From an uncultured Opitutales bacterium (GTDB taxonomy: Bacteria; Verrucomicrobiota; Verrucomicrobiia; Opitutales; Intestinicryptomonadaceae): a DNA stretch of 64,000 nucleotides. The stretch spans positions 1-64,000 of the forward strand of contig CALXLX010000034.1 in the NCBI GenBank assembly GCA_944389315.1. Direction: 5' to 3'. A program made the position numbers and the translations under genes. Positions 24,693 through 40,776 of this stretch are shown piece by piece. The notes under the pieces were generated by a model. The model saw only the letters and a program-made list of their open reading frames with translations. It was not told the origin of the DNA and did not search any database. Each line of letters begins with the position of its first letter. The first letter of the stretch is position 1.

Positions 24693-26066
24693 ATGGATAG
24701 AAGGAAATTCATAAAAAGCGTTGCCGCTTCCGCGGCGGCGGTATCTATGCCCTGCTTTTCGATAGCCAAGAGCAGAAATGCGAACGAAAAGATAAACGTG
24801 GCGTTTGTTGGCGTAGGAGGCATAGGAGCCATGTCTTTGGGAGGGCTTAAAAACGATTGCGCGGATTCCGTAAATTTTGCGGCGCTTTGCGATGTCGATA
24901 CAAAATATTCCGCCGGCAATGTTAAAAAATTCGCGCCCGACGCTCCGTTTTTTACGGACTACCGCCAGATGCTGGACAAGATGGGCAAGGATATAGACGC
25001 CGTATGCGTGTCCACTCCCGACCATTCCCACTTTAAGATTGCCATGGACGCCATGGAGTGCGGCAAGCATGTGGCCGTGCAAAAGCCTTTGGCTCACAAT
25101 GTCTGGCAGGTGCGCCAGCTTGCCAAGGCGCGCAAGTACTACGGCAAGCAGCAGACCGTGATGATGAACCAAGGGCATGCGACAGACCAGATAAGGCTGC
25201 TTAAGGAGTGGGCGGACTCGGGCGTATGCGGGGACTTTTCCGAAGTTCATGTGATGTGCGGCGGGCCGAACTGGAAGAGCATATATTTTAAAAAGCCCGC
25301 GTCGTATCCCTTCGGCAAGGAGGACGTTCCTTCCAACCTCTCTTGGGATTTGTGGATAAACCAGGGCAAGTTTACGGATTACAACAGCATATACCACCCG
25401 CTTACATGGCGCTCTTTCTGGGATTACGGAACGGGCATGCTGGGAGACTGGTTCTGCCATACGGGAGACGCTCCTGTCTGGATACTCGACCTTAAGGATC
25501 CGGTGTCTGTTGAGCTTGTCAGCGCCAAGACCAATTTCGACCCGAAGGTGTTCATCCCCGATTCTTCCATCGTGAAGTGGACTTTCCCGAAGACGGACAA
25601 GCGCCCTGAGTGCGTGATGTATTGGTACGACGGTGGCCAGGAGCCTCTGACGCGCCCGCACGATTTCGACGAGGGCAGAAAGCTGCCGACGGCGGGCATG
25701 TTTATGATAGGCTCCAAGCACACGATAGAAACCGGCGTTCGCCCGAACTTCAATCCGTGCATGACGAATACGGCGTTCTTCAAGGAGTTCAAGCGCAACA
25801 TGCCGCCCAAGACCATACCGAGAATTCCCAGGGGCAGCCTGTACCGCGAATGGATAGACGCAATAAAGGGCGACGGGCCCGAGTGTGGTTCCAACTTCGG
25901 GTATGCGGCGCAGCTTACGGAGGTGGCGCTTCTTGGCTGCCTGGCTCAGCGCTTCGGCGGAAAAATAGAGTGGGACGCGGAGAATATGTCCGCCAAGAAC
26001 CGGTCGGAGCTGAATGCGTTTATAAAGGAGCCTGAGCGCTCGGGTTGGGAAAGCAAAGCCATATAA
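24693..26066 (+). CDS. Tat-exported Gfo/Idh/MocA-family oxidoreductase
   Basis: 457 residues. The N-terminus DRRKFIKSVAASAAAVSMP is a twin-arginine signal, so the folded NAD-bound enzyme is likely exported. The Rossmann loop VAFVGVGGIGAMSLGG (about 34-48) and the HVAVQKPLAHN segment (the family's EKP motif with Gln in place of Glu) are seen, and the C-terminal half fits the family's dimerisation and substrate domain. Such proteins oxidise or rearrange sugars, some at C3. Two DUF1080 genes follow after a strong terminator, so they belong to the same neighbourhood but probably not the same transcript. Confidence 0.88.
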   Translation: MDRRKFIKSVAASAAAVSMPCFSIAKSRNANEKINVAFVGVGGIGAMSLGGLKNDCADSVNFAALCDVDTKYSAGNVKKFAPDAPFFTDYRQMLDKMGKDIDAVCVSTPDHSHFKIAMDAMECGKHVAVQKPLAHNVWQVRQLAKARKYYGKQQTVMMNQGHATDQIRLLKEWADSGVCGDFSEVHVMCGGPNWKSIYFKKPASYPFGKEDVPSNLSWDLWINQGKFTDYNSIYHPLTWRSFWDYGTGMLGDWFCHTGDAPVWILDLKDPVSVELVSAKTNFDPKVFIPDSSIVKWTFPKTDKRPECVMYWYDGGQEPLTRPHDFDEGRKLPTAGMFMIGSKHTIETGVRPNFNPCMTNTAFFKEFKRNMPPKTIPRIPRGSLYREWIDAIKGDGPECGSNFGYAAQLTEVALLGCLAQRFGGKIEWDAENMSAKNRSELNAFIKEPERSGWESKAI

Positions 26067-26096
26067 TTTAGCCTGTAGCTTACATATGGAAGCATA

Positions 26097-26116
26097 GCAG
26101 GCGTGCCTGCGTTTTT
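26097..26116 (+). terminator. First of two tandem terminators after the oxidoreductase gene
   Basis: Short stem GCAGG/CCTGC with a CGTG loop, then GTTTTT. Confidence 0.6.
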
Positions 26117-26119
26117 ATT

Positions 26120-26150
26120 CGCGGTTGTACTTTGTGCAGCCGCGTTTTTT
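26120..26150 (+). terminator. Second tandem terminator
   Basis: An 11-bp stem (26120-26130 with 26134-26144), including two G-U pairs, with a TTT loop and six T after it. Confidence 0.88.
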
Positions 26151-26595
26151 ATATGCGCAGCCGCTCTTTTTATTTTGGATATCTTTTCCTCCACAGGCCT
26201 TTCCGGTTGAGTGGCAGTTTTATTTGTTTTTCAAGTTGTCGTTATTAGAGCAAAATAGAGGAAAATTTGCCCGCGGATTTTCCATGGAGATATTTTTTAT
26301 GGCTGGCAATCCGGCATTGTTTCTTCGATTAGGTCAAAGGAATCCAAAAACTTTTACTATGGAGGCAATACTGGATAAATATTTTCAGTAAATGCCTCAA
26401 CGGCTCTTGACAGCCGGGGGTACCATATCCTAAAACCCCTTCGCCAACACGGAAATTTTTTGTTGCTACGCATGTTTGCGAAATATGCGTCAGGCAGGGA
26501 TAGTACGTTGCGGCAGAATAGAAAGCATAGTAAAATTCCTATCTTGGCGTTCGCGCCGATGCTCATTACAACAGATATAAAAGTCAAAAAAACAT
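26151..26595 (+). other. 445-bp AT-rich spacer before the DUF1080 pair
   Basis: No gene with coding character. TTGACA (26407-26412) and CTAAAA (26430-26435), 17 bases apart, are the best promoter candidate; the same CTTGACAGC string is found ahead of the oxidoreductase gene at 24583. That would leave a leader of roughly 150 bases. Confidence 0.35.
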
Positions 26596-27660
26596 ATGAA
26601 AAAGTTAATATTGGCAATTTTGCTTTCGGCGGGGGTTGCGGTTTTTGCCGAAGACGTTTTTGTGGGAGAATACAAGGGTTCTTGCGAAGCGCCTAAGGGG
26701 TCTTATTTCCAGATGAACCCCACGGTGCATATGCAAATTTCAAGGATAACGCCCGATACCTACCGCGTGAAGGTTCTGCCGTTTATATGCCGCAGGCCGT
26801 ATATATACGCTATTTGCGAGGTAAAATCGGACGGGAAGGGAGACCTTGTTTTGGACGGAGCCCCCTTTACTACGCAGTACAATTTCACCAAGATTTCCGG
26901 GGTTGTAAAGGCTGACGGCACAGCCGAGTTGGAGGGTGTTTGGGGAAAGACGCCCGTAAAGATGAAGCTCGAGAAGTTTTATAGGGGTTCTCCCACCATG
27001 GGTTTAAAGCCCTTTGAGGGGGCGACGATTTTAATAGGGGAGGGGAATCTGGACAAGTGGCGCGAGGCCGACGGTTCAGCGCCCGCCTGGGAGATACTTG
27101 GAGAAGTTGTGGAGATAAAGCCCGATCCGAAGATAAAGGGCAAGAAGCGCAAGAACCGTACCATATACACGCGCGAGAAGTTTTCGGGGGACCTGCGTTT
27201 GCACCTTGAATACAAGCTGCCTGAGGAGTACGACAAGAGCGGGCAGGGCAGGGGCAATTCCGGATTGTTCTTTGGGGACATAGAGCTGCAGATACTCGAT
27301 AGTTTTCATTCGGACGGGCTATGGGACGAGGCGGGGGCCTTGTATCGCTTTTCGCCGCCGCAAGTAAACGCTGCCCTGCCGGCACAGACATGGCAGACCT
27401 ACGATGTGGAATATATCGCCGCGAAGTATAAGGACGGAAAGATAGTTTCCTATCCGCGCCTTACAGTATGGCACAACGGGGTGAAGGTGCAAGGAGACGT
27501 TGAAGTATCCTCCTGCACTTCGCACAGGCAGGATTTGGTGAACAATTATAAATTTACGGAGGGGCCCATATCGATATCGTTGCAGGACCACGACCACAAG
27601 GTGCAGTTTAGAAACATGTGGGTATGCCCGCTTTCTACAGACGACGACAAAAACCTCTAA
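26596..27660 (+). CDS. Secreted DUF1080 (3-keto-glycoside hydrolase-like) protein 1
   Basis: 354 residues with signal peptide MKKLILAILLSAGVAVFA. Residues ~22-140 form a beta-rich N-terminal domain (VFVGEYKGS... to KLEKFYRGSP), and from ~155 the DUF1080 domain follows with LHLEYKLPEEY, GNSGLFFGDIELQILDSF and QTWQTYDVEY. DUF1080 members act on 3-keto sugars or bind glycans; here the substrate is unknown. The start has an A-rich upstream (AAAAAAACAT) and no Shine-Dalgarno. It is the first of a tandem pair with the gene at 27672. Confidence 0.85.
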   Translation: MKKLILAILLSAGVAVFAEDVFVGEYKGSCEAPKGSYFQMNPTVHMQISRITPDTYRVKVLPFICRRPYIYAICEVKSDGKGDLVLDGAPFTTQYNFTKISGVVKADGTAELEGVWGKTPVKMKLEKFYRGSPTMGLKPFEGATILIGEGNLDKWREADGSAPAWEILGEVVEIKPDPKIKGKKRKNRTIYTREKFSGDLRLHLEYKLPEEYDKSGQGRGNSGLFFGDIELQILDSFHSDGLWDEAGALYRFSPPQVNAALPAQTWQTYDVEYIAAKYKDGKIVSYPRLTVWHNGVKVQGDVEVSSCTSHRQDLVNNYKFTEGPISISLQDHDHKVQFRNMWVCPLSTDDDKNL

Positions 27661-27671
27661 AAGATTTAAAT

Positions 27672-28706
27672 ATGAAAAGAATATCGGCAGTTATAATTTC
27701 TACACTTTTTGCGTTAGTAGCGTTCGCGGAGGACCCGTTTGTGGGGGAATACGCGGGAGAATTTGTTTCCGAGGCGCACTATTTCAAGGTGAACCCTAAA
27801 GTCTATGCGCAGGTGTCCAAGCCCAGTGCGGACACCTATCAGCTTGTACTTACGCCGCAGCTTTATGTCAGGGCAACGCCGTATATACGCGAAATTATAA
27901 AGGCGGACGGTTCCGGGGAGCTGAAATTTGGCTCGGACAAAGCCAGCTGGGGTTTCAAGGTTACGGTGGACAAGTCCGGCGAGATTAAGGTAATGGGCAA
28001 GGCTGGCAAGGACGCAGTATCCGCGGTGCTGAAGAAGTACGAGAGGGTATCCCCTTCCATGGGCAAGCCCGCGCCCTCAGGGTCGGATATATTGATAGGC
28101 GGCGGGAATATGGATTCATGGACTCTCAAGGACGGCAGCGCCTGCGACTGGAAAATTCTCGACGGAGGCCAGGTCGAGAGTGTAATACACCCTGCGAAGA
28201 ACGGCAAGCCCCGCAGGAACAATACCGTATATACGAAGAAAGCGTACGAATCTTTCAGGCTGCATCTTGAGTTCAAGCTTCCCGAGGACTACAAGGGCAT
28301 GGGCGTTCCCAGGTGCAACTCCGGGCTGTACATAGGCCCGGTTGAGATACAGATACTGGACACTTTCCATGCCGACGCGCAGTGGGGAGATTGCGGCGCA
28401 CTATACAAATTTGTTCCGCCGCGCGCCAACTTCAGCCTTCCGCCCGAGAAGTGGCAGACTTACGATGTCGAGTTTAAGGGGGCGAAGTTTGACGAGAACG
28501 GCAAAGTGGTGAAATATCCGCGCATAACTGCGTGGCTTAACGGCATGAAGATGTACGATTCCGTGGAGCTTACCCAGGGGACGGACCATTCCCAATTGAG
28601 GGCGGAGTCTTATGTTTACAAGCCGGGCGGGCTTAAGATATCGCTGCAAGACCACGGGGACAAAATCCGCTTCCGCAATATGTGGGTGGAGCCGATTAAG
28701 GATTGA
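27672..28706 (+). CDS. Secreted DUF1080 (3-keto-glycoside hydrolase-like) protein 2
   Basis: 344 residues, signal peptide MKRISAVIISTLFALVAFA. It has the same two-part build as its neighbour (EDPFVGEYAGE start, LHLEFKLPEDY, CNSGLYIGPVEIQILDTF, EKWQTYDVEFKGA), so the two arose by tandem duplication and have since diverged a good deal. It lies 11 bases after the first copy and shares a terminator downstream. The longer frame starting inside the upstream gene is not the true start, since the signal peptide begins at 27672. Confidence 0.85.
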   Translation: MKRISAVIISTLFALVAFAEDPFVGEYAGEFVSEAHYFKVNPKVYAQVSKPSADTYQLVLTPQLYVRATPYIREIIKADGSGELKFGSDKASWGFKVTVDKSGEIKVMGKAGKDAVSAVLKKYERVSPSMGKPAPSGSDILIGGGNMDSWTLKDGSACDWKILDGGQVESVIHPAKNGKPRRNNTVYTKKAYESFRLHLEFKLPEDYKGMGVPRCNSGLYIGPVEIQILDTFHADAQWGDCGALYKFVPPRANFSLPPEKWQTYDVEFKGAKFDENGKVVKYPRITAWLNGMKMYDSVELTQGTDHSQLRAESYVYKPGGLKISLQDHGDKIRFRNMWVEPIKD

Positions 28707-28748
28707 GGCATTCTTAGCTGCCGTATTTCAAAGTTGATTTCTATTGCG

Positions 28749-28775
28749 GCCCGGGCGCGAGTCCGGGCTTTTTTT
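28749..28775 (+). terminator. Terminator after the DUF1080 pair
   Basis: Stem GCCCGG / CCGGGC (28749-28754 with 28763-28768), eight-base loop, then seven T. Confidence 0.9.
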
Positions 28776-29071
28776 ATGGGCAATGTCGGCCTGTATGCAA
28801 AATAAGCATGCGCGGCATGTCTAATCTGTGTCGGGAAGGGAAAATAAAATCCATATATCCGGCGCAATTTTTTACGGAGTGTGGGCGCGGGGCGCTATAT
28901 GCATGATATTTTTTTGTGGGCATATATTCTTGAGGATATCGGGTGTGTTTTTTTTACAAAAGCTCCTCTTTGGCGCAGACGCGGCATTTGAGGTTTTTTT
29001 AATTTGGAGTTTTTCCAAAACGGAGTAAAAGTCTTGCATTTGAGGGAGCGTAGACCTTATTTTTGTATGCG
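28776..29071 (+). other. AT-rich spacer with candidate ispH promoter
   Basis: With the terminator before it this makes a 365-bp gap between genes. TTGCAT (29034-29039) and TATTTT (29058-29063), 18 bases apart, would start transcription within a few bases of the ispH ATG at 29072. A 66-codon open frame from GTG 28828 is hydrophobic but has no ribosome binding site, and I do not accept it. Confidence 0.4.
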
Positions 29072-29947
29072 ATGAAAGTGCTAAGAGCAAAAAGTGCGGG
29101 GTTTTGTTTCGGAGTTGAGCGCGCTATAGGCATAGCGCGCAGTTGCGCGCGCTGCGGCAGCGGACATGTTTATACGGACGGGCCGCTGATACACAACCGC
29201 CAGATGATGGAGCTTCTCGAGGGTGAGGGCATAAAGGAGATAGGCGACTACAAGAGCGAAAAAAAGGTGGATTTGGACCTTTCGGGATCTGATAAGGAAT
29301 CCGACATACTCGTATTCAGGGCGCACGGTATATCGCCAGAAAGGCGGGAGTATCTCAAGAGCCTCGGGCTGAAGTGCAAGGACGCGACCTGCCCGGACGT
29401 CGGCAAGATAGCGGGCCGCATAATGTTTCATGTAAAGAAAGGCTACACGGTAATAATAGTCGGAGACCCGCAGCACCCCGAGGTTATAGGCCTTCTCGGC
29501 TATGCGGCGGACAAGGGGTTTGTCGTAAAGAGCAAGGAGGACATAGACAACCTGCCCGACATCAAAGGCGATATTTGCATGGTGTCGCAATCTACTATGT
29601 TTACGGACGACTACCGCGAGATAGCCGAATACTTTAAAATGCGGTTTCCGCAGACTGTAGTGATTGACACTATTTGCGGCGCGACCAAGGAGCGCCAGAA
29701 GGACGTGCGCACCCTTGCTGAGGACGGCGCGCAGGCAATAGTTGTGATAGGCGGCCGCCACTCGGCAAATACTATAAAGCTCGCAATAATGGCGCAGCGC
29801 ACCGGGCTGCCGTGCTTCCATGTGGAGACGGCCAAGGAGCTTGACATGGAGGTCTTGAGAAAATTCTCGGTAGTCGGGGTTACTGCGGGGGCTTCCACTC
29901 CAGATTTCCTTATAGACGAGGTCTGCAGGCGGCTGGAAAATATTTAA
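29072..29947 (+). CDS. ispH: IspH (LytB), 4-hydroxy-3-methylbut-2-enyl diphosphate reductase
   Basis: 291 residues. The last step of the MEP isoprenoid pathway, giving IPP and DMAPP. Three cluster cysteines are visible: AGFCFGVERAI, KDATCPDVGK and DTICGATKERQ. HGISPERRE and the VGDPQHPEVIGLLG and VVIGGRHSANTIKL segments are conserved. ATG 29072 is preferred to a TTG at 29063. No Shine-Dalgarno is present. It supplies prenyl units used by MqnP and, as DMAPP-derived phosphate, by UbiX and MiaA/MiaB-type tRNA modification. Confidence 0.96.
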   Translation: MKVLRAKSAGFCFGVERAIGIARSCARCGSGHVYTDGPLIHNRQMMELLEGEGIKEIGDYKSEKKVDLDLSGSDKESDILVFRAHGISPERREYLKSLGLKCKDATCPDVGKIAGRIMFHVKKGYTVIIVGDPQHPEVIGLLGYAADKGFVVKSKEDIDNLPDIKGDICMVSQSTMFTDDYREIAEYFKMRFPQTVVIDTICGATKERQKDVRTLAEDGAQAIVVIGGRHSANTIKLAIMAQRTGLPCFHVETAKELDMEVLRKFSVVGVTAGASTPDFLIDEVCRRLENI

Positions 29948-30147
29948 TATTCCTGTTTTCCGGCGCAAAAGATGCGCCTATTTGCGGGGGGGGTGGGAGC
30001 GTGCAATTATGCTCCTTGGCCCTAAGGTTATGTAAATAGGAGTGGTATTGCATGCGTATTTTTAGCGCCCATAAAAGATATTTTTTCCCTCTCCTGCTGA
30101 TTTTGCGTGCATAAGTATAAAAAGCCCGGACGGAAGGAGGGCATGTT

Positions 30148-30279
30148 ATGTTTTTTTTAGAAAAATGCGCCCGAAGCGCTTTTTGGGGCCGATTTTTATC
30201 GGATATTTGCGCGGTTTTGCCCGGCTGGCCCGGGCGTGGAAGGCGGGGCGCGCCGGCGTTGGGGCGGTGGAGGTTTTGA
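30148..30279 (+). CDS. Candidate 43-residue small protein
   Basis: The ATG at 30148 follows one of the strongest Shine-Dalgarno sequences in the window (GGAAGGAGG, 30132-30140, seven-base spacing). The peptide starts MFFLEKCARSAFWGRFLSDI and becomes Gly/Arg/Pro-rich (GWPGRGRRGAP). There is no recognised family, and the composition of the second half could be chance in GC-rich DNA. The start signal is the only good evidence. Confidence 0.25.
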   Translation: MFFLEKCARSAFWGRFLSDICAVLPGWPGRGRRGAPALGRWRF

Positions 30280-30330
30280 GGATTTCTTTGAGCCGCTTGG
30301 GCCCGCCATGGAGGATAAAAGGAAATTTTT

Positions 30331-30359
30331 TTGTTGATTTTTGTTTCCGGGGGTATACT
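30331..30359 (+). promoter_or_regulatory. Candidate promoter for rplY
   Basis: TTGTTG (30331-30336), 17-base spacer, TATACT (30354-30359). It implies a leader of about 80 bases with a GTAGC...GCTAC pairing (30388-30430) that could serve autoregulation; this last part is inference. Confidence 0.5.
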
Positions 30360-30446
30360 TTACAACCCCTTATAAAACTTTTTCCGTAGCTACGCCCGTT
30401 CGGCGCGGTGTGGCGGCGGTATCATTGCTACAATACATCCATCAAA

Positions 30447-31115
30447 ATGAAACAGATTAAATTAAGCGTATCCAACAGGGAAAAGCTTGGCGGAAACAAT
30501 GCGAAGCGTTACCGTAAGGCCAACAAGATACCCGCCGTCATATACGGCGAAAGCGGAGAGAAGAATCTTCTGCTCGACGCCAAGGAGTTTTCCGTAGCAG
30601 CCCGTCAGATAAGCGGCATAGCGGCCCTTCTCGATATTTCTTTCGACGACGGCACGGAGTCCCGCTACGCCATGGTTAAGTCCGTGGAGCGCAATCCCAT
30701 AACGGACGCGGTGCTGCATGTGGATTTCATAGAGGTAGTCCGCGGCAAGCCCATGTTGGCGGTTGTTCCGATACACGTGACGGGCGAGGCGTTCGGCGTC
30801 AAGAATGAGAACGCGGTTCTTGAGCAGCATTTGCACGAGATGAAGATAAAGTGCCGCCCGAGGGATCTGCCCGAGTTTATCGAGGTGGACGTTTCGGACA
30901 TGCACCTGGGAGATCTTCTCACCCTCGCGGATTTGAAGCTTCCCGAAGGCGTGACTTTGGATATGGACGGCGAGCGCACGGTTGTAACCTGCGACGCTCC
31001 CATGGCCGAGGAGGTTGCTCCCGCCGAGCCCGCCGCAGAGGCTGCTCCGGCCGAGGGCGATGCCAAGGCAGCCGCTCCTGCCGCGGACGCGAAACCCGCG
31101 GAAGCCAAGAAATAG
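30447..31115 (+). CDS. rplY: 50S ribosomal protein L25/CTC
   Basis: 222 residues, of the long bL25 (CTC) form. The N-terminal 5S rRNA-binding domain starts MKQIKLSVSNREKLGGNNAKRYRKANKIPAVIYG, and the C-terminal domain (VVPIHVTGEAFGVKNENAVLEQ) is complete. It ends with an Ala/Glu/Pro-rich tail after ~residue 190, ending in EAKK. ATG 30447 has no Shine-Dalgarno (upstream CATCCATCAAA). It is followed after 85 bases by pth, a common pairing. Confidence 0.94.
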   Translation: MKQIKLSVSNREKLGGNNAKRYRKANKIPAVIYGESGEKNLLLDAKEFSVAARQISGIAALLDISFDDGTESRYAMVKSVERNPITDAVLHVDFIEVVRGKPMLAVVPIHVTGEAFGVKNENAVLEQHLHEMKIKCRPRDLPEFIEVDVSDMHLGDLLTLADLKLPEGVTLDMDGERTVVTCDAPMAEEVAPAEPAAEAAPAEGDAKAAAPAADAKPAEAKK

Positions 31116-31200
31116 ACTTTTATGCTTTGCCATCCCTTCGTCGAGTGTTGCCGCTTAGGCTTGCAATATTCGGCGGGCAGAGGGATATTTGTTCTTTGAT

Positions 31201-31803
31201 ATGCCGATAAAACTTATAGTCGGGTTGGGAAACTCGGGCGAGCGGTATGTTCGTACGCGCCACAATGCGGGTGCCAATATGCTCTATGCGTATGCGCGCA
31301 ATGCGGGTGCGCTTTTCAGGTACGACAAATTCTGCCGCGCGAATCTTGCGAAGGCGTCCATATCCTCCAGGGAGGTGTGGCTGTGCACGCTCGACGGCTT
31401 TATGAACGAAAGCGGGATAAACCTCGCGGCGGTTCTAAAATTTCTCAAGGTCGACATAGGTTCATGTGCGGTTTGCTACGACGACATAAACATAGCTCTT
31501 GGGCGCATGAAGCTTACCCTCGGCGGTTCGGCCGGGGGGCACAACGGCGTCAGGGACGTGCTGGCCCGCTGTGGAGACGGTTTTGCGCGGTTGCGCATAG
31601 GCGTCGGCGGAAGGGCGGACAAGCGCCAGGATTTGGCCGACTATGTTTTGTCTGTTATGACGGCGGAACAAACCGCGCAGATGCACTCGCTCGACGGGGC
31701 TTTTCCCGAGGCTTTGGAGCTTCTTGTAGGCAAGGGGCTTGCGGCGGCCCAGAATGTGGTGAACCGCAGGGACGATGCGGCCGAGCAAAAAGCAGAAGGG
31801 TAA
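31201..31803 (+). CDS. pth: Peptidyl-tRNA hydrolase
   Basis: 200 residues. It releases peptides from peptidyl-tRNA that drops off ribosomes. The GLGNSGERYVRTRHNAG segment carries the catalytic His; DGFMNESG, DDINIALGRMKL and the GGSAGGHNGVRD region are intact. The start is set at ATG 31201, which gives the usual MPIKLIVGLGN; an upstream in-frame start adds only four residues. Confidence 0.95.
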   Translation: MPIKLIVGLGNSGERYVRTRHNAGANMLYAYARNAGALFRYDKFCRANLAKASISSREVWLCTLDGFMNESGINLAAVLKFLKVDIGSCAVCYDDINIALGRMKLTLGGSAGGHNGVRDVLARCGDGFARLRIGVGGRADKRQDLADYVLSVMTAEQTAQMHSLDGAFPEALELLVGKGLAAAQNVVNRRDDAAEQKAEG

Positions 31804-31881
31804 GGCAACTTTACGGAGGGCTCTTTTGGGCGTTCCTTTTAAATCTGAGAATCCCGAAAACTTTCTAAGAAAAAAACGACA

Positions 31882-32172
31882 ATGAATAGCAAAAAATACA
31901 ACGCAACATTTATCCTCGACACCAGAGGTTATGAAGAACCCGTGGAAACTCTCATAGAGAAGCTCAAGGGAGTGATAGAGTCGGTGGGCGGCAAGGTGGA
32001 ATCGGCGGAGAATCTCGGCCAGAAGAACTTTGCGCGCGTTCCCAACCGCAAGTTCCCGTCGGGAATATTCGTATCCATAAAGTACGAGGGCGACGCGGCA
32101 AGTCCGGCCCAGATCACGGAGAAGCTCCGCCTGGACAAGACGGTAAACCGTCTGATGATACAGTCTGCCTAA
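31882..32172 (+). CDS. rpsF: 30S ribosomal protein S6
   Basis: 96 residues. It starts MNSKKYNATFILDTRGYEEPVE and contains the KNFARVPNRKFPSGIFVSIKYEG strand region of bS6. The leader is A-rich (AAAAAAACGACA) with no Shine-Dalgarno. It heads rpsF-ssb-rplI-dnaB; rpsR (S18), usual in such operons, is absent here. Confidence 0.94.
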   Translation: MNSKKYNATFILDTRGYEEPVETLIEKLKGVIESVGGKVESAENLGQKNFARVPNRKFPSGIFVSIKYEGDAASPAQITEKLRLDKTVNRLMIQSA

Positions 32173-32214
32173 TCCCGCTAAGGGACGCTTAACCGCGAAC
32201 GGAAAGGAATTTCA

Positions 32215-32673
32215 ATGCCCTCTTACAACAGAGTGATTTTGATGGGAAATCTCACTAGGGATCCGGAAGTCAGACAAACGCAGAGCGGCACGATGGTCTG
32301 TCGTTTTTCCATTGCGGTAAACCGTTCGTTCACTTCGGGAGACGGTTCCCAGCGCGACGAAACATGTTTCATAGAGATAGACTCCTTCGGCAGGACGGCC
32401 GAGAACATCGGCAAGTTCTTCTCCAAGGGCAAGCCCATATTGGTCGAGGGGCGTCTGCGCCAGGATTCCTGGGACGACAAGAACACCGGCCAGAAGCGCA
32501 GCAAGCTTCTCGTGGTTTTGGAGCGTTTTGAGTTTGTTGGTTCCCCCCGCGGCGGGGCGGACTCCTACGACCAGGGCGGCGATTACGAGCGTTCAACGCC
32601 TCCGTCGCGCGGGCCAAGGCAGTCCCAGCGCCCCCAGGCCGACGACATGGAGGACGACGACGTCCCGTTCTGA
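32215..32673 (+). CDS. ssb: Single-stranded DNA-binding protein
   Basis: 152 residues. The OB fold begins MPSYNRVILMGNLTRDPEVRQTQSG, then a Gly/Asp/Pro-rich linker, and the acidic tip MEDDDVPF that binds partner proteins. AAGGAA precedes the ATG. It lies 42 bases after rpsF and 48 before rplI. Confidence 0.97.
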   Translation: MPSYNRVILMGNLTRDPEVRQTQSGTMVCRFSIAVNRSFTSGDGSQRDETCFIEIDSFGRTAENIGKFFSKGKPILVEGRLRQDSWDDKNTGQKRSKLLVVLERFEFVGSPRGGADSYDQGGDYERSTPPSRGPRQSQRPQADDMEDDDVPF

Positions 32674-32721
32674 TTTTCCCGAATAAATACAAAAACAACA
32701 TTTAGAGTTTAGAGAACAATC

Positions 32722-33231
32722 ATGGCTACAAGCAAAATACTATTGGTAAAACCCGTCGAGGATCTCGGCAACGAGGGCGAACAGGTAACGGTCAAGGCCG
32801 GCTACGCCCGCAATTATCTGCTTCCCAGGAAGCTTGCGCTTCCGGTAAACCGCGCGAACAAGAAGATGGTGGAGGCTCTGCTCAAGGCCCGCGACGAGCG
32901 TTTGGCCGCCGAGCTTTCTTCGGCCGAGGCTCTTGCGGAGAAGATAAAGGCGGTTTCCGTTGCCATAGCTGTAAAGACCGGCGACGGCGGAAAGCTCTTT
33001 GGCTCGGTCACGGCCCAGAACATCATAGACAGGCTGGCCGCGGAGGGCATAGAGCTGAAGAAAAAGCAGCTCAGGCTGGCAGCTCCGGTCAAGGAGCTTG
33101 GCAAGCATACCGCTTCCGTAAGGCTGCACGCAAATGTGAAGTTCGACCTCGAGTTCGAAGTTGTCTCGGAGAACCCCATAGAGGATTCCGAGGCTGACAA
33201 GGCCGAGAAGTCGGCAGAAAAGCAGGCTTAA
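32722..33231 (+). CDS. rplI: 50S ribosomal protein L9
   Basis: 169 residues, slightly longer than the usual ~150. The N-terminal rRNA-binding part (KILLVKPVEDLGNEGEQVTVKAG, ARNYLLPRKLA) and the C-terminal domain joined by a long helix are clear. A Glu/Lys-rich tail follows. Six of its seven isoleucines are coded by AUA. Confidence 0.95.
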   Translation: MATSKILLVKPVEDLGNEGEQVTVKAGYARNYLLPRKLALPVNRANKKMVEALLKARDERLAAELSSAEALAEKIKAVSVAIAVKTGDGGKLFGSVTAQNIIDRLAAEGIELKKKQLRLAAPVKELGKHTASVRLHANVKFDLEFEVVSENPIEDSEADKAEKSAEKQA

Positions 33232-33275
33232 TCCTGTTTGCAGGTTTCATTTGACGCAACAGGGAGCTCCGCGCT

Positions 33276-34772
33276 ATGCCGCCGAAAGGAGAATCATCGG
33301 ATTCCAAGCCTGCAAGGCGTGCGACGCGGGGCTCGAGCGTTCTTACTGCGGGGGGAGGCGCCGCATCGGCGGCGTTGAATAGGCAGGAGCGTCTCGGGGA
33401 CGCTATTCTTTCGCGGGAGCTGCCGAACAATATAGACGCCGAGGAGGGCGTAATCGCGAGCATAATACTCGACGGCACGGGCGAGGTTATAAATAACTGC
33501 CTTGCCATGAAGGTGCGCGAGGAGTATTTTTACAGTCCGGTAAACAGGCGCATATATGCAGCCGCCTTGGATTTGTTCTCCAAGGGCAAGGCCATAGACG
33601 AGATAGTACTGACGGATTATTTCTCGTCGAAAAACGAGCTGGATTTGATAGGCGGGCCGGCCGCCATAGTGCGCATAGCGGGGCGCATAGAGACTTTCGC
33701 CCATTACCGCCACTGGCTTGAGATAGTCAGGGAGAAGTATTTTTTAAGAAGCATAATAAGCGTCTGCGCGCGCACCATGGAGGGCGCGTACACCGCGCAG
33801 GGCGACCTGGACAATTTTATAGAGTCCATGGAGCAGCATGTCCTGTCCATCAGCAACGACAGGGTTGCCGACACCATCCAGAAGGCGGACAAGCAGGTTG
33901 ACGGCGCGCTGAAGATCATCGAGCAGATGGTTGTCAACAAGGGAGAGCTGACGGGCATACCCACAGGTTTCCACGATTTGGACAATCTCACGCGCGGGCT
34001 GCATGCCAAGGAGATGATAGTCATAGCGGGGCGCCCGGGCACGGGCAAGACTTCCATAGCGCTGAATATGGTTGAGAGCGCAATCTTCGGGAAGAGGCGT
34101 TCGCCGACGCTGATATTTTCGCTCGAGATGGGCGCAGACCAGCTTTACGTGAGGCTTATTTCCTCCATGGCGCGTGTCGACCAGCAGGCGATGAGGTCCG
34201 GCAGGATACAAAAGAGCGTCATGGGCGACATAATGAATGCCGCCAAGGAGCTGAAGGCCGCCCCCCTATGGATAGACGACACCATGGACATGAACATTCT
34301 GGAGATGAGGGCAAAGGCAAGGCGCCTGGCCCAACAGCTTTCCAGAGACGGCCAGAAGCTGGGCCTGATAGTGCTCGACTACATACAGCTGCTTAAGCCG
34401 ATAGACTCGCGAATACCCAGGGAGCAGCAGGTCGCGGAAATGTCTCGCGGGCTGAAGGCCATGTCCAAGGAGCTGGATGTTCCGGTGATAGTGCTCGCCC
34501 AGCTGAACAGGGACAGCGAGAAGGACAAGCGCGATCCGCGCGCGAGCGATTTGAGGGAGTCCGGCTCCATAGAGCAGGACGCAGACGTCATTTTTCTCTT
34601 GAGTTGGCAGAAGATTTCTGAGAAACAGAAAGACGAACAGCCGGACGGCAACGCCCGATTGGTGCGTCTTGAGGTTGCAAAGCAAAGAAACGGACCGACC
34701 GGGTACGTCAATTTGATATTCAACCGCAACTACACCCGGTACGAGAATTATTTGAATCGTGACACCATTTAA
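33276..34772 (+). CDS. dnaB: Replicative DNA helicase DnaB
   Basis: 498 residues. An N-terminal tail of about 45 residues rich in Ser/Ala/Arg precedes LPNNIDAEEGVIASIILDG, the usual beginning, so the true start might be further in; no better ATG was seen. The RecA-like motor has Walker A GRPGTGKT (252-259), LIVLDYIQLLKP (Walker B) and the LRESGSIEQDADVI arginine-finger region. The location after rplI is a common arrangement. bamA begins ten bases after its stop. Confidence 0.96.
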   Translation: MPPKGESSDSKPARRATRGSSVLTAGGGAASAALNRQERLGDAILSRELPNNIDAEEGVIASIILDGTGEVINNCLAMKVREEYFYSPVNRRIYAAALDLFSKGKAIDEIVLTDYFSSKNELDLIGGPAAIVRIAGRIETFAHYRHWLEIVREKYFLRSIISVCARTMEGAYTAQGDLDNFIESMEQHVLSISNDRVADTIQKADKQVDGALKIIEQMVVNKGELTGIPTGFHDLDNLTRGLHAKEMIVIAGRPGTGKTSIALNMVESAIFGKRRSPTLIFSLEMGADQLYVRLISSMARVDQQAMRSGRIQKSVMGDIMNAAKELKAAPLWIDDTMDMNILEMRAKARRLAQQLSRDGQKLGLIVLDYIQLLKPIDSRIPREQQVAEMSRGLKAMSKELDVPVIVLAQLNRDSEKDKRDPRASDLRESGSIEQDADVIFLLSWQKISEKQKDEQPDGNARLVRLEVAKQRNGPTGYVNLIFNRNYTRYENYLNRDTI

Positions 34773-34782
34773 GATACAGTCG

Positions 34783-37215
34783 ATGATACTCCGCGCGGTT
34801 GCATTTTTACTTCTGTTGCGGGCGTGCGTGCTTGGAGCCCAAGGGATAGGCGGCGGGCCCTATGCTCCCGGCGGCGATGGCGGGGCGCTCGGGGCTGTTG
34901 CGTCGGCGGCTGCGGCTGACCACAATGCTTTGGACGACCAGAGCAAGATGATTGTAGACAGGATCACCGTGCGTTTTGAGGGCCCGCAGCATGTTTCCGA
35001 GGACGCAGTCATGGCGCATGTTAAGGTCAGGAAGAACATGGCTTTCGACCAGCACAATTTGGACTCGTCCATACGCTCCCTCTACGGGACGGGCTTGTAC
35101 GACTTTGTTGAGGCCTACAAGACGCTGCCCTCTCCGGGAAAGATGGACATAGAGTTTTTCCTCATACCCAAGTACAGGATAAGCCAGATAATATTCAGCG
35201 GAAATTCGGAGTTTGGCGCGGCGCGTCTGCAAAGGCAGATTAGCTCGTATTCCGGCGGCCCTCTGGACGACAGGGAGGTCAAGCGCGACGTGGACAAAAT
35301 CGTCAAGTACTACAAGGACAAGGGCTATTCCCTCGCGAAGGTTTCCTATGCGATAGAGAAGAACGACACCAACGGCACCGGCGTGGTGCGTTTCGACGTC
35401 GATGAGGGGCAGGATGTCACGATAGAGAACATATATTTCACCGGCAACAGCCACATAGAGGCCGACGTCCTCCTTGACGAGATGAAGACCGGCACATGGA
35501 TGTTCCTCATCTCCCACATAACCGACATCGGACGTTTCAACGAGGACGATTTCCAGTCCGACCTCGAGAAGTTGCGCCAGTACTACCGCAACGAGGGCTA
35601 TTTGGACGTGGAGATAGACGAGAGCAAGGTTAAGCTTGATTTCCCCGATTCGGACGAGCCCGGAGAGATGGACATAACCATACCCATCTCTGAGGGAAAG
35701 CAGTACAAGATAGGCAAGACCACCTTCCGCAACAACAAGCTCTTTAAAACGGAGGTTTTGGACGAGTTTGTCTCGTACAACAAGCTCTCGGCGGGCAATG
35801 TGTTTTCCCCGAAGCGCGTTGATACGCTCGTAGAGGATATCAAGGATTATTACGGGCAGTACGGGTATATAGAGACCATAGTCCGCGCGTTGCGCCGCCC
35901 AAATCTTGAGACAGGCCAGATAGACCTGATAATAGACATCATAGAGAGCGACAAATACTACGTTGAGAGCATCAACATACAGGGCAATACGAAGACCAAG
36001 AGCGAGGTCATCATAAGGGAGCTTGCTCTTGAGCCGGGGGATATTTTCGACTATGTCAGAATGAAGGCGTCGGAAAACCGCCTTAAGAACACGCGTTTCT
36101 TCGACGAGGTCACAATATCTCCCGAGGTGACGAGCATACCAAACCGCCGCAACATGAGAATTATCGTCAAGGAGGCCAGAACAGGAAACTTGACCTTCGG
36201 AGCGGGCTTCAGCACGGTCGAGAGCTTTGTCGCCACGGCGGAACTTTCCCAGAGCAATTTCGACTATCAGAACTACGACAGCTGGTTCCAGGGGGCCGGG
36301 CAGAAGTTTAGGATAAGGGCGTCCATAGGAGACGAGTCCAGCCAGGTGATAATAGGTTTCGAGGAGCCGTGGATATTCAACCGCGAGATTGCGTTTGGCT
36401 TCGAGCTTTTCAGAACGGATACGGGTTATTATTCCGACGAGTATTCTGAACTGCGCACGGGCATGACATTCTACATACGCAAATATCTCTTTGAGCACGT
36501 CGAAGGGCGCCTGGGCTACACGGTAGAAGACGTGAACATATACGACGTGACCTCCAACGCCCCGTGGCCCATAGCCAAGGAGGAGGGGCATAGGTCTATT
36601 TCGGAGATAAACTTAAGCTTCCTGAGGGACACTCGCGACAACGCCATGACGCCCACAAAGGGAACCCGATTCGAGATAGTTCAGGCTGTGGCCGGCGGCC
36701 CCCTCATGGGCCAGACCAACCTCTACAGGGTGGAGGGCAGAGCCGGTGCATGGTTTAGAATGTGGGAATACATACCTGCGTGCAAGTTTGCAAACCAGGT
36801 GTTCTCCCTCGTGGGAAGAACGGGGTCTGTCATGGGGTACGGCGGCAAGGAGGTTCCGTTCTTCGAGAGGTACTTCCTCGGAGGCGCGTACAATATGCGC
36901 GGTTTCAAATACCGCAAGGTGGGCCCCATAGAAAACGGGGAGCCGGTAGGCGGAAATTCGTTCGGGTACATATCGGCGGAATATTCGTTCCAAGTAATAG
37001 AGCCCCTGCGCATAGCGCTGTTCTACGACATAGGCTTTGTCAATGCCGACTCTTGGGATTTCGACCCGTCGGAATACAACGACGACTTCGGCATAGGGTT
37101 CCGCATAAACCTCATGGGCGCGCCCATGCGCATAGACATAGGCATGCCCATAACGCACGGCAAGGATAACGACGACGGCATACAGTTCAACTTCTCCTTC
37201 GGATCCGTATTCTAA
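34783..37215 (+). CDS. bamA: BamA, outer membrane protein assembly factor
   Basis: 811 residues from ATG 34783, which yields the signal peptide MILRAVAFLLLLRACVLGAQG. Five POTRA domains follow (first near ~55-125; later ones include NIYFTGNSHIEADVLL and SINIQGNTKTKSEVIIREL). The C-terminal beta barrel carries the family's RGF signature (YNMRGFKYRKVGP) and ends in FSFGSVF. It inserts beta-barrel proteins into the outer membrane. With skp downstream, this is the classic bamA-skp pair. Confidence 0.96.
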   Translation: MILRAVAFLLLLRACVLGAQGIGGGPYAPGGDGGALGAVASAAAADHNALDDQSKMIVDRITVRFEGPQHVSEDAVMAHVKVRKNMAFDQHNLDSSIRSLYGTGLYDFVEAYKTLPSPGKMDIEFFLIPKYRISQIIFSGNSEFGAARLQRQISSYSGGPLDDREVKRDVDKIVKYYKDKGYSLAKVSYAIEKNDTNGTGVVRFDVDEGQDVTIENIYFTGNSHIEADVLLDEMKTGTWMFLISHITDIGRFNEDDFQSDLEKLRQYYRNEGYLDVEIDESKVKLDFPDSDEPGEMDITIPISEGKQYKIGKTTFRNNKLFKTEVLDEFVSYNKLSAGNVFSPKRVDTLVEDIKDYYGQYGYIETIVRALRRPNLETGQIDLIIDIIESDKYYVESINIQGNTKTKSEVIIRELALEPGDIFDYVRMKASENRLKNTRFFDEVTISPEVTSIPNRRNMRIIVKEARTGNLTFGAGFSTVESFVATAELSQSNFDYQNYDSWFQGAGQKFRIRASIGDESSQVIIGFEEPWIFNREIAFGFELFRTDTGYYSDEYSELRTGMTFYIRKYLFEHVEGRLGYTVEDVNIYDVTSNAPWPIAKEEGHRSISEINLSFLRDTRDNAMTPTKGTRFEIVQAVAGGPLMGQTNLYRVEGRAGAWFRMWEYIPACKFANQVFSLVGRTGSVMGYGGKEVPFFERYFLGGAYNMRGFKYRKVGPIENGEPVGGNSFGYISAEYSFQVIEPLRIALFYDIGFVNADSWDFDPSEYNDDFGIGFRINLMGAPMRIDIGMPITHGKDNDDGIQFNFSFGSVF

Positions 37216-37230
37216 AAAAGTCGGAAAAAT

Positions 37231-37260
37231 TTGAACATTTGGCGATAAAACTTTACTAAT
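37231..37260 (+). promoter_or_regulatory. Candidate internal promoter for skp
   Basis: TTGAAC (37231-37236), 18-base spacer, ACTAAT (37255-37260). The transcript would start at about 37267 and give a short A-rich leader without a Shine-Dalgarno. Confidence 0.4.
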
Positions 37261-37287
37261 GTCTAAAAATAAAATACTAAAAACAAT

Positions 37288-37866
37288 ATGAAAAAATTAA
37301 GCATACTGGTTTCTTCAATCTTGGTTGCAGTGGTAGCGCAGGCGGCTCCTACGATTTATGTCGTCGATACCGCGCAGGTTTACTCCAACTATTATAAGGC
37401 TAAAGAGGCCAACGCACAGATACAGTCCTCCATAGAGCAGACAAGGCAGGAGCTTCAGAAGATGGAGCAGAAGCGCCAGGCCTTGATAAAGGAGCTCAAC
37501 GCCGTCGAGGAGAAGATGAAAAACCCCGCGCTGACGGAGGACGCAAAGAAGAAGATCGCCCAGGAGGAGGGCGCTCCCAAGTTCAACGAGATCCGCGCGC
37601 TGGAGCAGAACATAAAGAATGTAAACGCTCAGGCCAGTCAGAGGCTTGAACAGAATGTGCAGTCCATAAGGGCCATACATTTGCAGGATATCCGCGAGGC
37701 CGTCTCCAAGATTGCCGAGACCAAGAAGGCGGACTTCATCCTCGAGAAGAGCGTATGCATATTCTCCAAGCCCACTGTTGATCTTACCCAGGAGGTCATC
37801 GCCGCGATAAATGCGGGCGCTCCCGCTGAGGTTGCCGCTCCCGCAAAAACGGAGGCTAAGAAATAG
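37288..37866 (+). CDS. skp: Skp/OmpH-like periplasmic chaperone
   Basis: 192 residues. Signal peptide MKKLSILVSSILVAVVAQA, then IYVVDTAQVYSNYYKAKEAN and a long coiled-coil stretch (~40-130, rich in Gln/Lys/Glu), the prongs of the trimeric chaperone that carries outer membrane proteins to BamA. The C-terminal EVAAPAKTEAKK tail is low complexity. A strong terminator follows. Confidence 0.92.
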   Translation: MKKLSILVSSILVAVVAQAAPTIYVVDTAQVYSNYYKAKEANAQIQSSIEQTRQELQKMEQKRQALIKELNAVEEKMKNPALTEDAKKKIAQEEGAPKFNEIRALEQNIKNVNAQASQRLEQNVQSIRAIHLQDIREAVSKIAETKKADFILEKSVCIFSKPTVDLTQEVIAAINAGAPAEVAAPAKTEAKK

Positions 37867-37892
37867 ATTTTTACCATCAAGACAGGTAATAA

Positions 37893-37927
37893 AACCCGGG
37901 ATTGCTTGTGCAGCCCCGGGTTTTTTT
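37893..37927 (+). terminator. Terminator after skp
   Basis: Stem AACCCGGG / CCCGGGTT (37893-37900 with 37915-37922), then T7. Confidence 0.92.
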
Positions 37928-38146
37928 GTGCAGTTTAAAAGATATTGCAAACAGGGTGGGGCGAAGCGGGGTGCAAGTATTTTGTTTTTAATATGCTCGC
38001 CGGCGATGTTTCTCCGCTTATTTGCTCCGGAAGCGCAAAATAGGCGGGATGCCTCTCTTTAGCCCCCAAGGGCCGAGATTTGCGCGCGCTATGAGGCTAT
38101 GTGCCTATTATTCCCCGGACATATCCGCGCTCGCCGAACCTAAATT

Positions 38147-38217
38147 AAAAAAGGCCGACGCGGCGCGGAAGCTGCGGAATTTTTTCAAGGATTCCGTCTC
38201 TTCCGGGCCGCGTCGGC
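38147..38217 (-). terminator. Extended terminator of the RNase P RNA gene
   Basis: A perfect 11-bp outer stem (38154-38164 with 38207-38217) encloses a second stem-loop (CGGAAT/ATTCCG), then six T on the minus strand. It abuts the RNA's 3' end. Confidence 0.88.
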
Positions 38218-38609
38218 ATCGGGGAGCTGTAAGCCGAATTCTGTTCTCGCAAATCGCCGATTGAAATGCGAAAGCGTCCATTTATCTGAATATGGGGAAT
38301 ATACCCCAAACCCTCCCGCCTAAGCGGGACGCGACACACCCGAAGCCCTGCGGACGAGCAGCCCAAGCTTCATACGCTGTCTTGCACCGGATTGGGTTTA
38401 CCTTGCCGTGGCCGATTGCTCGTCACGCGGTGGGCTCTTACCCCGCCTTTTCACCCTTACCCTTGCGGGCGGTTTGTTTTCTGTGGCACTGTCCATGGAC
38501 GAGCCTTGCGGCGCGCCCCCCGCCTTTTCAGACGGAATCCCGCTCTGCGGTGTCCGGACTTTCCTCTCTCAAAAGAACCTTCCGAGAGCGGACGCTCGCT
38601 CCCCGACAT
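38218..38609 (-). ncRNA. rnpB: RNase P RNA (type A)
   Basis: Read on the minus strand, the hallmark conserved blocks are in order: GAGGAAAGTCCGGAC near 38560-38575, GGGTAAGGGTGAAAAGGCGG and GGTAAGAGCCCACCG near 38430-38465, GGTAAACCCAATCCGG near 38385-38405, and the 3' block ACAGAATTCGGCTTACAG near 38230-38250. Helix P1 can be formed by 38598-38606 with 38219-38227, which fixes both ends to a few bases. It is the catalytic RNA that cuts pre-tRNA 5' leaders. No protein gene is present on either strand here. Confidence 0.95.
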
Positions 38610-38748
38610 TTTTGAGCGTCCGACTTTTAAAATCTTATTGCAAGAAAAATCGTCGGCATCGAAACTGTCGCTGGCGTTTGGAGTTTTTAGGCGCTCTTTT
38701 GCCTTGATTTGTATATCAAGGAATATATTCTTTGGATAAATTAAAGAG

Positions 38749-39867
38749 ATGAAAGCGCTTTTTGCAGTTTTTGCGGCCGTATTTATTTGCGTGTGCGTCC
38801 GCGCGGATACGACGGTGTATACTCCGGTGTACGGGGTTTCGTCGGTGTCGTGTCCGGCAAATGCGGATACCTTTATAACGATACCTTTTACGCGGCCCGC
38901 GGAGTTTTCCGGCAAGGTGCAGTCTGCGGCGATGAACGGCGAGTATTTGGACGTCGTAGTTGCGGGCGAACCCCATTGGTCTGCGAACCAGTTTGTTTAC
39001 GATTCCGCCTCCCAGAGGAATTACTACTATCTTAAGTTTACATCCGGCAATCTTGAGGGCGCGTGGTACAACGTCAGGGCAAACGGGGCCTACACGCTCT
39101 CTCTGGAATTTGGCGAGGGTGAGCTTTCGGAGGTTTCCGCCGGGGATACTTTTGAGATAATCCCGCATTGGACTCTTTCCACCCTATTCCCCAACGGGGG
39201 CAATTTTGTAAAAAACACAATTGGCGCATTCGGGTACAATGCGACCAAGCTTTACAAATACACGGGCTTTGAGGACGGGCATATAATAGAGCCAGATCCG
39301 GGTGTGAACAACGCTTTTAAGGCGGTGTATTACTACCGCAAGTTCGGCACTACGGATTCGTGGATGAACGGGAAGACTCCCGTGCCGGACGACATTGTCG
39401 AGCCAAATTCCTTCCTCAGGGTAAGGCAGCCCGCGGGGGAGGCTTCCGCGGTGGATATTTCCGGAGTGTTGCCGGCGTGCGCGACTACGGTTGTGGCGTA
39501 TACATTGTCGGCGGACACCGCGCAGGACAACTATATATCGTTTTCAAACCCTGTGGACATCAAGCTTTCTGATTTGACTGAGGCATTGATAGACAGCGGG
39601 GTTTTCACCCCGACGACGTCGAGCGCCCCCATCGCCGAGGACAGGCTTTATGTCTACGACAATTCCAGGGTGGAGCTAAACCAGGCGGCCTCTAAGGTCT
39701 ACTTCTATAGGAGCGTAGGGAATATCGGCTGGTTTAACGGGAAGACCCTTGCAAATGACGATATAATAAAGGCGGGGTCGGCTCTAATTCTTCGCAAGAA
39801 AGCCACGCCTTCCCCGGTTGCATTCAGGGGAAAATTTATACCATTTTATAAAAACAATACTCAATAA
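38749..39867 (+). CDS. Secreted TIGR02597-like protein
   Basis: 372 residues with signal peptide MKALFAVFAAVFICVCVRA. The N-terminal segment YGVSSVSCPANADTFITIPFTRPAEFSGKV and two internal segments with SWMNGKTPVPDDIVEPNSFL and GWFNGKTLANDDIIKAGSAL repeat the family's pattern. To my knowledge, TIGR02597 proteins are found in Verrucomicrobiota and are commonly next to PEP-CTERM genes; the function is unknown. AAAGAG precedes the ATG. It lies 12 bases before the PEP-CTERM gene, so the two are co-transcribed. Confidence 0.7.
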   Translation: MKALFAVFAAVFICVCVRADTTVYTPVYGVSSVSCPANADTFITIPFTRPAEFSGKVQSAAMNGEYLDVVVAGEPHWSANQFVYDSASQRNYYYLKFTSGNLEGAWYNVRANGAYTLSLEFGEGELSEVSAGDTFEIIPHWTLSTLFPNGGNFVKNTIGAFGYNATKLYKYTGFEDGHIIEPDPGVNNAFKAVYYYRKFGTTDSWMNGKTPVPDDIVEPNSFLRVRQPAGEASAVDISGVLPACATTVVAYTLSADTAQDNYISFSNPVDIKLSDLTEALIDSGVFTPTTSSAPIAEDRLYVYDNSRVELNQAASKVYFYRSVGNIGWFNGKTLANDDIIKAGSALILRKKATPSPVAFRGKFIPFYKNNTQ

Positions 39868-39879
39868 CACTCAAATAAC

Positions 39880-40521
39880 ATGAAAAAGGCATCCATATTT
39901 ATAGCGCTTTCCGCTTTTTCATTGGGCGGGCTGTACGCCTCCTACAATTACGATATGAGCGGGGGGTATTTCTACAATTCCGACGGCCAGATACTCGACA
40001 AGGCGTATATGGCTCTTGTCGTTTGCGAAAACGATGTCGACTTATCGTCTATAACCTTGGAGAGCGGCTATTCGTTTTTGGACAACACCTGGCTGAACGG
40101 CGACTCGGCCGAGGGTGTCTATGTTTTGAATGTCAGTTATTTTGACGATTCCTATCCGTATGCGAGCGGAGTTATAAACAACGACACTTTGCCCTCTTCT
40201 CTGACCGGGGACGAGCGCATAGCCCTGATTGCGTGGGCCCAGTCTGACGGCGAGATAAGCAGCACTATAGACGACGGGACGGACTATCTCGTCTTTGCTC
40301 CCGAGCTCATCGGCGGAGAGCTTTCGGGCGGAATGGAGTGGAATTTGGATCCATCAAATTCAAACGCTCAGAATTGGGCGTTCCTTTCCACCGACATGGG
40401 CGGCAATATATCGTGGGAGAACCTCGCTCTTTCCAAGACTGTGATTCCCGAGCCCGCCACATACGCAGGGCTAAGCGGCCTGCTGGCCTTGGCCTTCGCT
40501 TTCTTAAGAAAGCGGAAATAG
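39880..40521 (+). CDS. PEP-CTERM sorting domain protein
   Basis: 213 residues. An N-terminal signal peptide (MKKASIFIALSAFSLGGLYA) and a C-terminal tripartite signal: VIPEPATYAG, a hydrophobic helix (LSGLLALAFAFL), then RKRK. That makes it a substrate for an exosortase, which is not in the window. The middle part is acidic, rich in Asp/Ser/Tyr and without recognised domains. It follows the TIGR02597-like gene directly, likely both exported surface or matrix proteins. Confidence 0.88.
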   Translation: MKKASIFIALSAFSLGGLYASYNYDMSGGYFYNSDGQILDKAYMALVVCENDVDLSSITLESGYSFLDNTWLNGDSAEGVYVLNVSYFDDSYPYASGVINNDTLPSSLTGDERIALIAWAQSDGEISSTIDDGTDYLVFAPELIGGELSGGMEWNLDPSNSNAQNWAFLSTDMGGNISWENLALSKTVIPEPATYAGLSGLLALAFAFLRKRK

Positions 40522-40553
40522 TAGCCCCTGTTTCTCAGGAACATTTCAAAAAG

Positions 40554-40593
40554 ACGCCGGCTTGCGCAGACTTAGCAAACCGGCGTTTTTTTT
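40554..40593 (+). terminator. Terminator after the PEP-CTERM gene
   Basis: Stem ACGCCGG / CCGGCGT (40554-40560 with 40580-40586), then T8. The rest of the 331-bp gap to the ferredoxin gene holds only this and the opposing terminator; no gene is seen. Confidence 0.9.
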
Positions 40594-40776
40594 GAAGATG
40601 CATAAAGTGGCGTTCTGCGGTATTTTTTTGGGAGATGGCGCGCTAATAGAGAGAAAATTTTTTGCCGATATTTTCTCTTTTCAGAGAGGCTCTGGCGGAT
40701 ATTTCCGGCGCGTATTTTTGTTGTATAGGCGCTGTATTCAAAGGTAAAGCGGCGATATTTTCTGCCTTTTAGCGCA

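Follow-up and report, generated by a model that had tools for sequence, protein, structure and literature searches.

AUA is the textbook rare codon: most bacteria avoid it and read it only with a specially modified tRNA. In a comparison of ten bacteria, AUA usage ranged from 0.6 to 39 per 1000 codons, the highest value being that of Borrelia burgdorferi (39 per 1000), and in every one of the ten AUA was reduced in highly expressed genes; the same 2025 study reports, in the part drawn on here, that TilS efficiency and AUA usage are not clearly correlated among distantly related bacteria (PMC12514573). A C34 modification of tRNA-Ile2, 2-aminovaleramididine (ava2C) at position 34, aids AUA reading and begins from TilS, according to the portion of PMC11938285 used. 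Judged by titles and abstract beginnings, none of the papers listed deals with a preference for AUA in Opitutales or Verrucomicrobia, or with preferred AUA generally.

The window, that is, the whole stretch of DNA analysed (positions 1 to 64 000; GC content ca. 54%), is one part of a 2.27-Mb assembly (54 contigs, 91% complete). Its genome, a member of a family of Opitutales (Verrucomicrobiota), is designated G000; G001 is a congener, and G006 and G010 are sister species.

Isoleucine codon usage in the window and the genome

An earlier note on the window had named AUA as the favourite Ile codon even in ribosomal proteins. Its counts for S6 (5/7) and L9 (6/7) were both reproduced (Table 1), and the two genes together (11/14 AUA) depart from an assumed share of 25% (p=4e-5). 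For S1, 11 of the first 13 Ile codons are AUA, as had been stated; over the whole gene the share is 25/46, because the remaining Ile codons are AUA in 14/33 cases. AUA is dominant only in the first third of S1, and the quoted portion makes the case look stronger than the full gene does. The remark that MqnE shows the same pattern held for the codons of the best MqnE candidate (13/19 AUA) and not for the name, since its score lies below the NCBIfam cut-off for MqnE. An MqnC-like neighbour (9705-10931), which also scored below the NCBIfam cut-off for its name, uses AUA for 20 of its 24 Ile codons.

Table 1. Features of the window and their isoleucine codons.
Feature	Position	Strand	Assignment	AUA	AUC	AUU
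Ribosomal protein S6	31882..32172	+	Pfam PF01250, TIGR00166	5	2	0
Ribosomal protein L9	32722..33231	+	Pfam PF01281/PF03948, TIGR00158	6	1	0
Ribosomal protein S1	56449..58110	+	TIGR00717 rpsA	25	16	5
tilS, tRNA-Ile lysidine synthetase, 466 aa	18251..19651	-	TIGR02432 138.9 bits (cut-off 93.6), PF01171	11	3	10
MqnE-like radical SAM enzyme	8089..9138	+	best model MqnE, under its cut-off	13	0	6
Whole window	1..64000		longest-ORF set including some spurious ORFs	744 of 1100 Ile codons		

Genome-wide counts were obtained from a 464-kb sample (the window and twenty further 20-kb pieces of the same genome) by using a purpose-made codon-score gene finder with Ile codons excluded from the score, which predicted 329 genes. 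These contain 5521 AUA, 1297 AUU and 1005 AUC codons, so that AUA makes up 71% of Ile codons (5521/7823) and 43.3 per 1000 codons at a GC3 of 0.68. In 19 S10-spc ribosomal proteins, 115 AUA, 35 AUC and 22 AUU codons were counted (AUA 115/172, 67%). AUA also stayed ahead when 19 + 4 ribosomal proteins were included (S6, L9, S1 and S7 added), and the claim that it is the favourite Ile codon even in ribosomal proteins was upheld. The AUA preference is real and genome-wide.

A highly expressed set was assembled from the 19 ribosomal proteins together with S6, L9, S1, S7 and EF-G (290 Ile codons: 184 AUA, 75 AUC and 31 AUU). AUC is doubled in this set (25.9%, 75/290, versus 12.5% in the rest; p=2e-9) and AUA is slightly reduced (63.4%, 184/290, versus 70.8%, 5452/7705; p=0.009); for the 19 S10-spc proteins alone, the drop in AUA against the genome is not significant (p=0.31). 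With this shift to AUC, the idea that highly expressed genes favour AUA is not supported: AUA is not a translationally selected ('optimal') codon in the sense of one enriched in highly expressed genes.

These counts bear on the reading implied by the earlier note, in which lysidine-bearing tRNA-Ile2 is the major Ile tRNA and AUA the fastest codon. Such a straight translational optimum would agree with AUA being the commonest Ile codon in the ribosomal proteins and in EF-G (29/52), and with the ribosomal share in the relative G008, which at 63% lies above that of its genome sample (57%), a difference that is not significant (p=0.13). It is nevertheless unlikely, given the enrichment of AUC and slight depletion of AUA in the highly expressed genes of G000, an AUA-versus-AUC ribosomal shift that is negative in 9/9 sampled genomes (the interval includes zero in G006 and G008), and the single tRNA-Ile(CAU) gene. 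The AUA-versus-AUU ribosomal shift was +0.59 [0.19, 0.99] in G008 and +0.34 [-0.05, 0.72] in G000, as against -0.76 [-1.34, -0.18] in G010 and -0.46 [-0.87, -0.04] in G004; the other sampled genomes were undecided. From the two shifts taken together, AUA has risen from the bottom of the three Ile codons towards the middle and has not become the optimum. The change in the highly expressed genes of G000 is that AUA carries no penalty relative to AUU.

AUA usage among relatives

Codon counts were made without G023, G027, G030 and G032-G035; the L4 match was absent in G005, G009, G018, G024 and G029, and G019 (7 ribosomal genes only) was excluded from the trees. G000 and G001 contributed 19 of 23 ribosomal genes each, because contigs end. 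The AUA share of ribosomal Ile codons in 12 genomes of the family was 0.67 (G000), 0.66 (G001), 0.63 (G008), 0.57 (G013), 0.52 (G014), 0.51 (G006), 0.36 (G012), 0.27 (G004), 0.27 (G011), 0.14 (G002), 0.09 (G003) and 0.08 (G010). Four further family members gave 0.64 (G015), 0.45 (G016), 0.43 (G017) and 0.24 (G007), and the eight other order members tested gave 0.00-0.31. A search of named genomes covered 80 loci, the 15 closest and 65 others (63 Verrucomicrobiota groups, 2 Richelia). Ribosomal AUA was 0.09-0.67 in the 15 closest, which are Opitutales and related records and include several genomes already counted; two of them come from yak gut (abomasum, cecum). Of the 65 others, the 59 with a GC3 of at least 0.45 never exceeded 0.08, and the remaining six, which have lower GC3, reached 0.23. 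High ribosomal AUA marks one Opitutales family.

In the ribosomal tree, the family forms a single clade (support 100/100). For the character 'AUA is the top Ile codon', parsimony requires at least six changes here; in the simplest history the state was gained once on the stem and lost five times. The state of G012 is marginal (AUA 74 versus AUC 77 with 23 genes, AUA on top with 19 genes). The sisters G006 and G010 (100/99) show the largest difference, with AUA shares of 0.51 versus 0.20 in the genome samples and of 0.51 versus 0.08, that is, six-fold, in ribosomal genes, at genome-sample GC3 values of 0.65 and 0.67, respectively. Ile is the amino acid with the most changed codon usage between them, with a distance of 0.31 against 0.20 for Phe, which ranks second.

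GC content or GC3 was rejected as the driver: a ribosomal GC3 of 0.64 goes with 8% AUA in G010 and one of 0.61 with 63% in G008, and across 12 family members AUA and GC3 gave rho 0.43 (p=0.17). Across 12 family genomes, whose points share ancestry, AUA usage rises with GAG (rho 0.89) and AGG (rho 0.85), and Ile may therefore belong to a wider change.

Codon meaning, DNA context and decoding apparatus

Residues facing AUA codons of G000 in eight AUA-poor relatives were collected from aligned ribosomal proteins and SecY: Ile 58%, Val 18%, Leu 12% and Met 2%. Those facing AUC in the same alignment were Ile 66%, Val 14%, Leu 13% and Met 1%, and AUU was alike. Reassignment of AUA was rejected on this match; AUA is isoleucine in G000. 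At 42 invariant Ile columns, ATA is used in 28/42 cases in G000, 29 in G008, 2 in G010 and none in G020 or G031.

ATA accounts for 0.70 of ATA, ATC and ATT in the codon frame of G000, for 0.29 in each other frame and for 0.39 in intergenic DNA; in the AUA-poor G002 the values are 0.17 in frame and 0.38 intergenic. GUA, CUA and UUA make up 0.19, 0.05 and 0.04 of the codons of their own amino acids in the G000 sample. Since these are low and no such excess of ATA is seen between genes or off frame, the AUA bias is codon-specific.

A mutational or DNA-signature bias, by which the genome makes ATA or avoids ATC everywhere, for example through GATC avoidance, is an improbable explanation. Some DNA-level bias does exist: in intergenic DNA, ATA is over-represented (observed/expected 1.52) and ATC under-represented (0.80); GATC has an observed/expected ratio of 0.48 in G000 and of 0.06-0.69 in 12 family loci, against 0.75-1.14 in eight other order members; and ATC makes up 4% of Ile codons after G versus 13-22% after other bases, so that GATC avoidance lowers AUC after G. 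However, the in-frame ATA share far exceeds both the intergenic and the off-frame values given above. AUA-rich and AUA-poor members cannot be told apart by intergenic ATA (0.31-0.39 in G000, G006 and G008 versus 0.32 in G010 and 0.38 in G002), and the strongest GATC avoiders, G003 (0.06) and G010 (0.33), use the least ribosomal AUA (0.09 and 0.08). On the frame comparison and the relatives, DNA context with GATC avoidance was rejected as the main cause, and a mutation-driven bias is largely refuted. CTAG has an observed/expected ratio of 0.13 in G000.

Rfam searches identified 38 tRNA genes in the G000 assembly. By resemblance to E. coli tRNAs, we take L004 (C2:21870) to be the canonical tRNA-Ile(CAU), distinct from L011 and L027, which we take to be the methionine tRNAs. 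L004 carries C4:G69 and C5:G68, which are described as TilS determinants in E. coli in the part of PMC12514573 used. The anticodon-arm pattern of tRNA-Ile(CAU) was found exactly once in 17/19 family genomes, G000 included. The exact pattern gave no match in G009 and G010, nor did a search of G010 with up to three mismatches. G009 yielded hardly a candidate in the searches made and is hence uninformative; because tilS is present and AUA still used in G010, its tRNA-Ile(CAU) gene may sit in an assembly gap. Copy number of tRNA-Ile(CAU), one of the checks proposed in the earlier note, offered no explanation with one gene in 17/19 family genomes and was rejected as the cause, the gene being single in AUA-rich and AUA-poor relatives alike; nor does it point to the abundant tRNA-Ile(CAU) that the note had implied. 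The family shares C-G at 29:41 of this tRNA versus G-C in five other order members (hand numbering), and AUA-rich and AUA-poor members have this pair alike; other variation within the family lies at scattered acceptor and T-arm positions and is not sorted by AUA usage.

No match for tRNA-Ile(UAU) was found in the 91% complete G000 assembly, and no credible match in the family. tRNA-Ile(GAU) was not found in the G000 assembly, but 16S rRNA is likewise missing from it, and a loss of the tRNA gene does not follow; tRNA-Ile(GAU) adjoins tRNA-Ala(TGC) near 16S in G004 (two copies), G011 and G012. The nearly complete tRNA sets of G008 (AUA-rich; 38/40 tRNA places covered) and G010 (AUA-poor) are much the same and mostly single-copy. 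G000, G008 and G010 have unusually full sets of C34 and G34 tRNAs, such as Lys CTT, Glu CTC, Ala CGC, Leu GAG and Pro GGG, nearly all single-copy.

The assignment of TilS in the window was confirmed by a TIGR02432 score above cut-off and an N-type PP-loop domain (Table 1). Under known decoding rules, with one tRNA-Ile(CAU) gene and no tRNA-Ile(UAU) found, AUA reading should rest on lysidine-type modification; at 43 AUA per 1000 codons, this agrees with the heavy dependence on TilS that had been proposed. tilS was found once in 11/12 family genomes searched, the miss being G009. Autoregulation through AUA avoidance inside tilS was rejected: a low AUA share (11/24 versus 0.706 in the genome; p=0.010) was seen in G000 only and was absent in six other family genomes with a baseline (p 0.38-0.76; three more had no baseline). 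The TilS proteins of G000 and of the congener G001 (L234) are 71% identical; the L2 proteins of the two genomes are 98% identical.

A second AUA reader, either an extra CAU tRNA-like gene or a tRNA-Ile(UAU), is very improbable. A fourth CAU tRNA-like gene does lie ca. 4.4 kb beyond the window end (L036:4410-4484, minus strand; G000:C34:68411-68481; ARAGORN; Rfam tRNA 41 bits), but it has no encoded CCA and an odd acceptor stem, and it has no counterpart in G001, whose AUA usage is equal; elsewhere, two weak matches turned out to be tRNA-Trp genes. This gene was rejected as the cause. A tRNA-Ile(UAU) reader is opposed by the search of the family given above and by the Opitutales relative G020, which has such a gene yet hardly uses AUA. 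The G020 gene (L338, G020:C40:30476, minus strand) stands beside tRNA-Arg(ACG); tilS matches are present in G020, but a search with up to three mismatches gave no anticodon-arm pattern of tRNA-Ile(CAU) in this genome.

Chance, or the selective reading of a few genes, can be practically dismissed: the earlier note did count only the first part of S1, but the genome-wide preference extends over 329 genes, and among the 291 of them that have 10 or more Ile codons the per-gene AUA share is 0.71 in the median and 0.54 and 0.85 at the first and ninth deciles.

Proposed mechanism and comparison with known systems

The best explanation, held with a confidence that stops just short of even, is weak selection at the level of decoding that followed a rise of lysidine-bearing tRNA-Ile2 relative to tRNA-Ile(GAU) on the family stem. 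The supply or the speed of the modified tRNA would have increased there through tRNA expression or modification and not through gene copies. AUA would then no longer have been slower than AUU and, with its penalty removed, could have accumulated as the default Ile codon by weak codon-level selection or drift. tRNA-Ile(GAU), which is located in the rRNA operons of relatives, would keep an edge for AUC in the most expressed genes, and the shift would later have been lost in several sublineages. The near-equal tRNA gene sets of G008 and G010 count against this explanation, as do the scattered differences in tRNA-Ile(CAU), which do not follow AUA usage, and the rise of AUA with GAG and AGG. Classical translational selection is expected to be strongest in highly expressed genes; as AUC and not AUA is enriched in those, selection for AUA in ordinary genes is unexplained by the standard model.

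A wider reading is possible though somewhat doubtful. In it, a single-copy, lysidine-modified tRNA-Ile2 would serve as the main Ile tRNA across most of the proteome, in a family of high GC3 living at moderate temperature. The hierarchy AUC > AUA > AUU, in which AUA is not last, would have been set once on the family stem and lost repeatedly as the supply or the modification of the tRNA changed and gene copies did not, and G006 and G010 would thus decode Ile differently with nearly the same tRNA genes. The group, in which these two close relatives differ six-fold in ribosomal AUA at the same GC3 and nearly every genome has one tRNA-Ile(CAU) gene, constitutes a natural experiment on how a codon comes to be favoured. 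The family is a controlled setting for asking what makes a codon preferred at fixed gene copy number, and whether the activity of TilS or of the modification changes with the preference.

Some thermophilic bacteria and archaea use AUA and AGG freely at moderate GC. Unlike these, the group of G000 has at least two named relatives from animal gut, and its preference flips between sister species. With the bacteria that decode AUA through lysidine and TilS, G000 shares one tRNA-Ile(CAU) gene, with an anticodon arm like that of E. coli tRNA-Ile2, and a TilS with a PP-loop domain. The ava2C system would serve the same AUA reading; its second enzyme is given as unidentified in the portion of PMC11938285 used, so the system is not traceable in sequence. 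The difference from the lysidine/TilS bacteria is one of usage: AUA is a minor codon there and the main Ile codon in G000, which, at 43 AUA per 1000 codons and with a window of ca. 54% GC, lies beyond the ten-species range quoted from PMC12514573.
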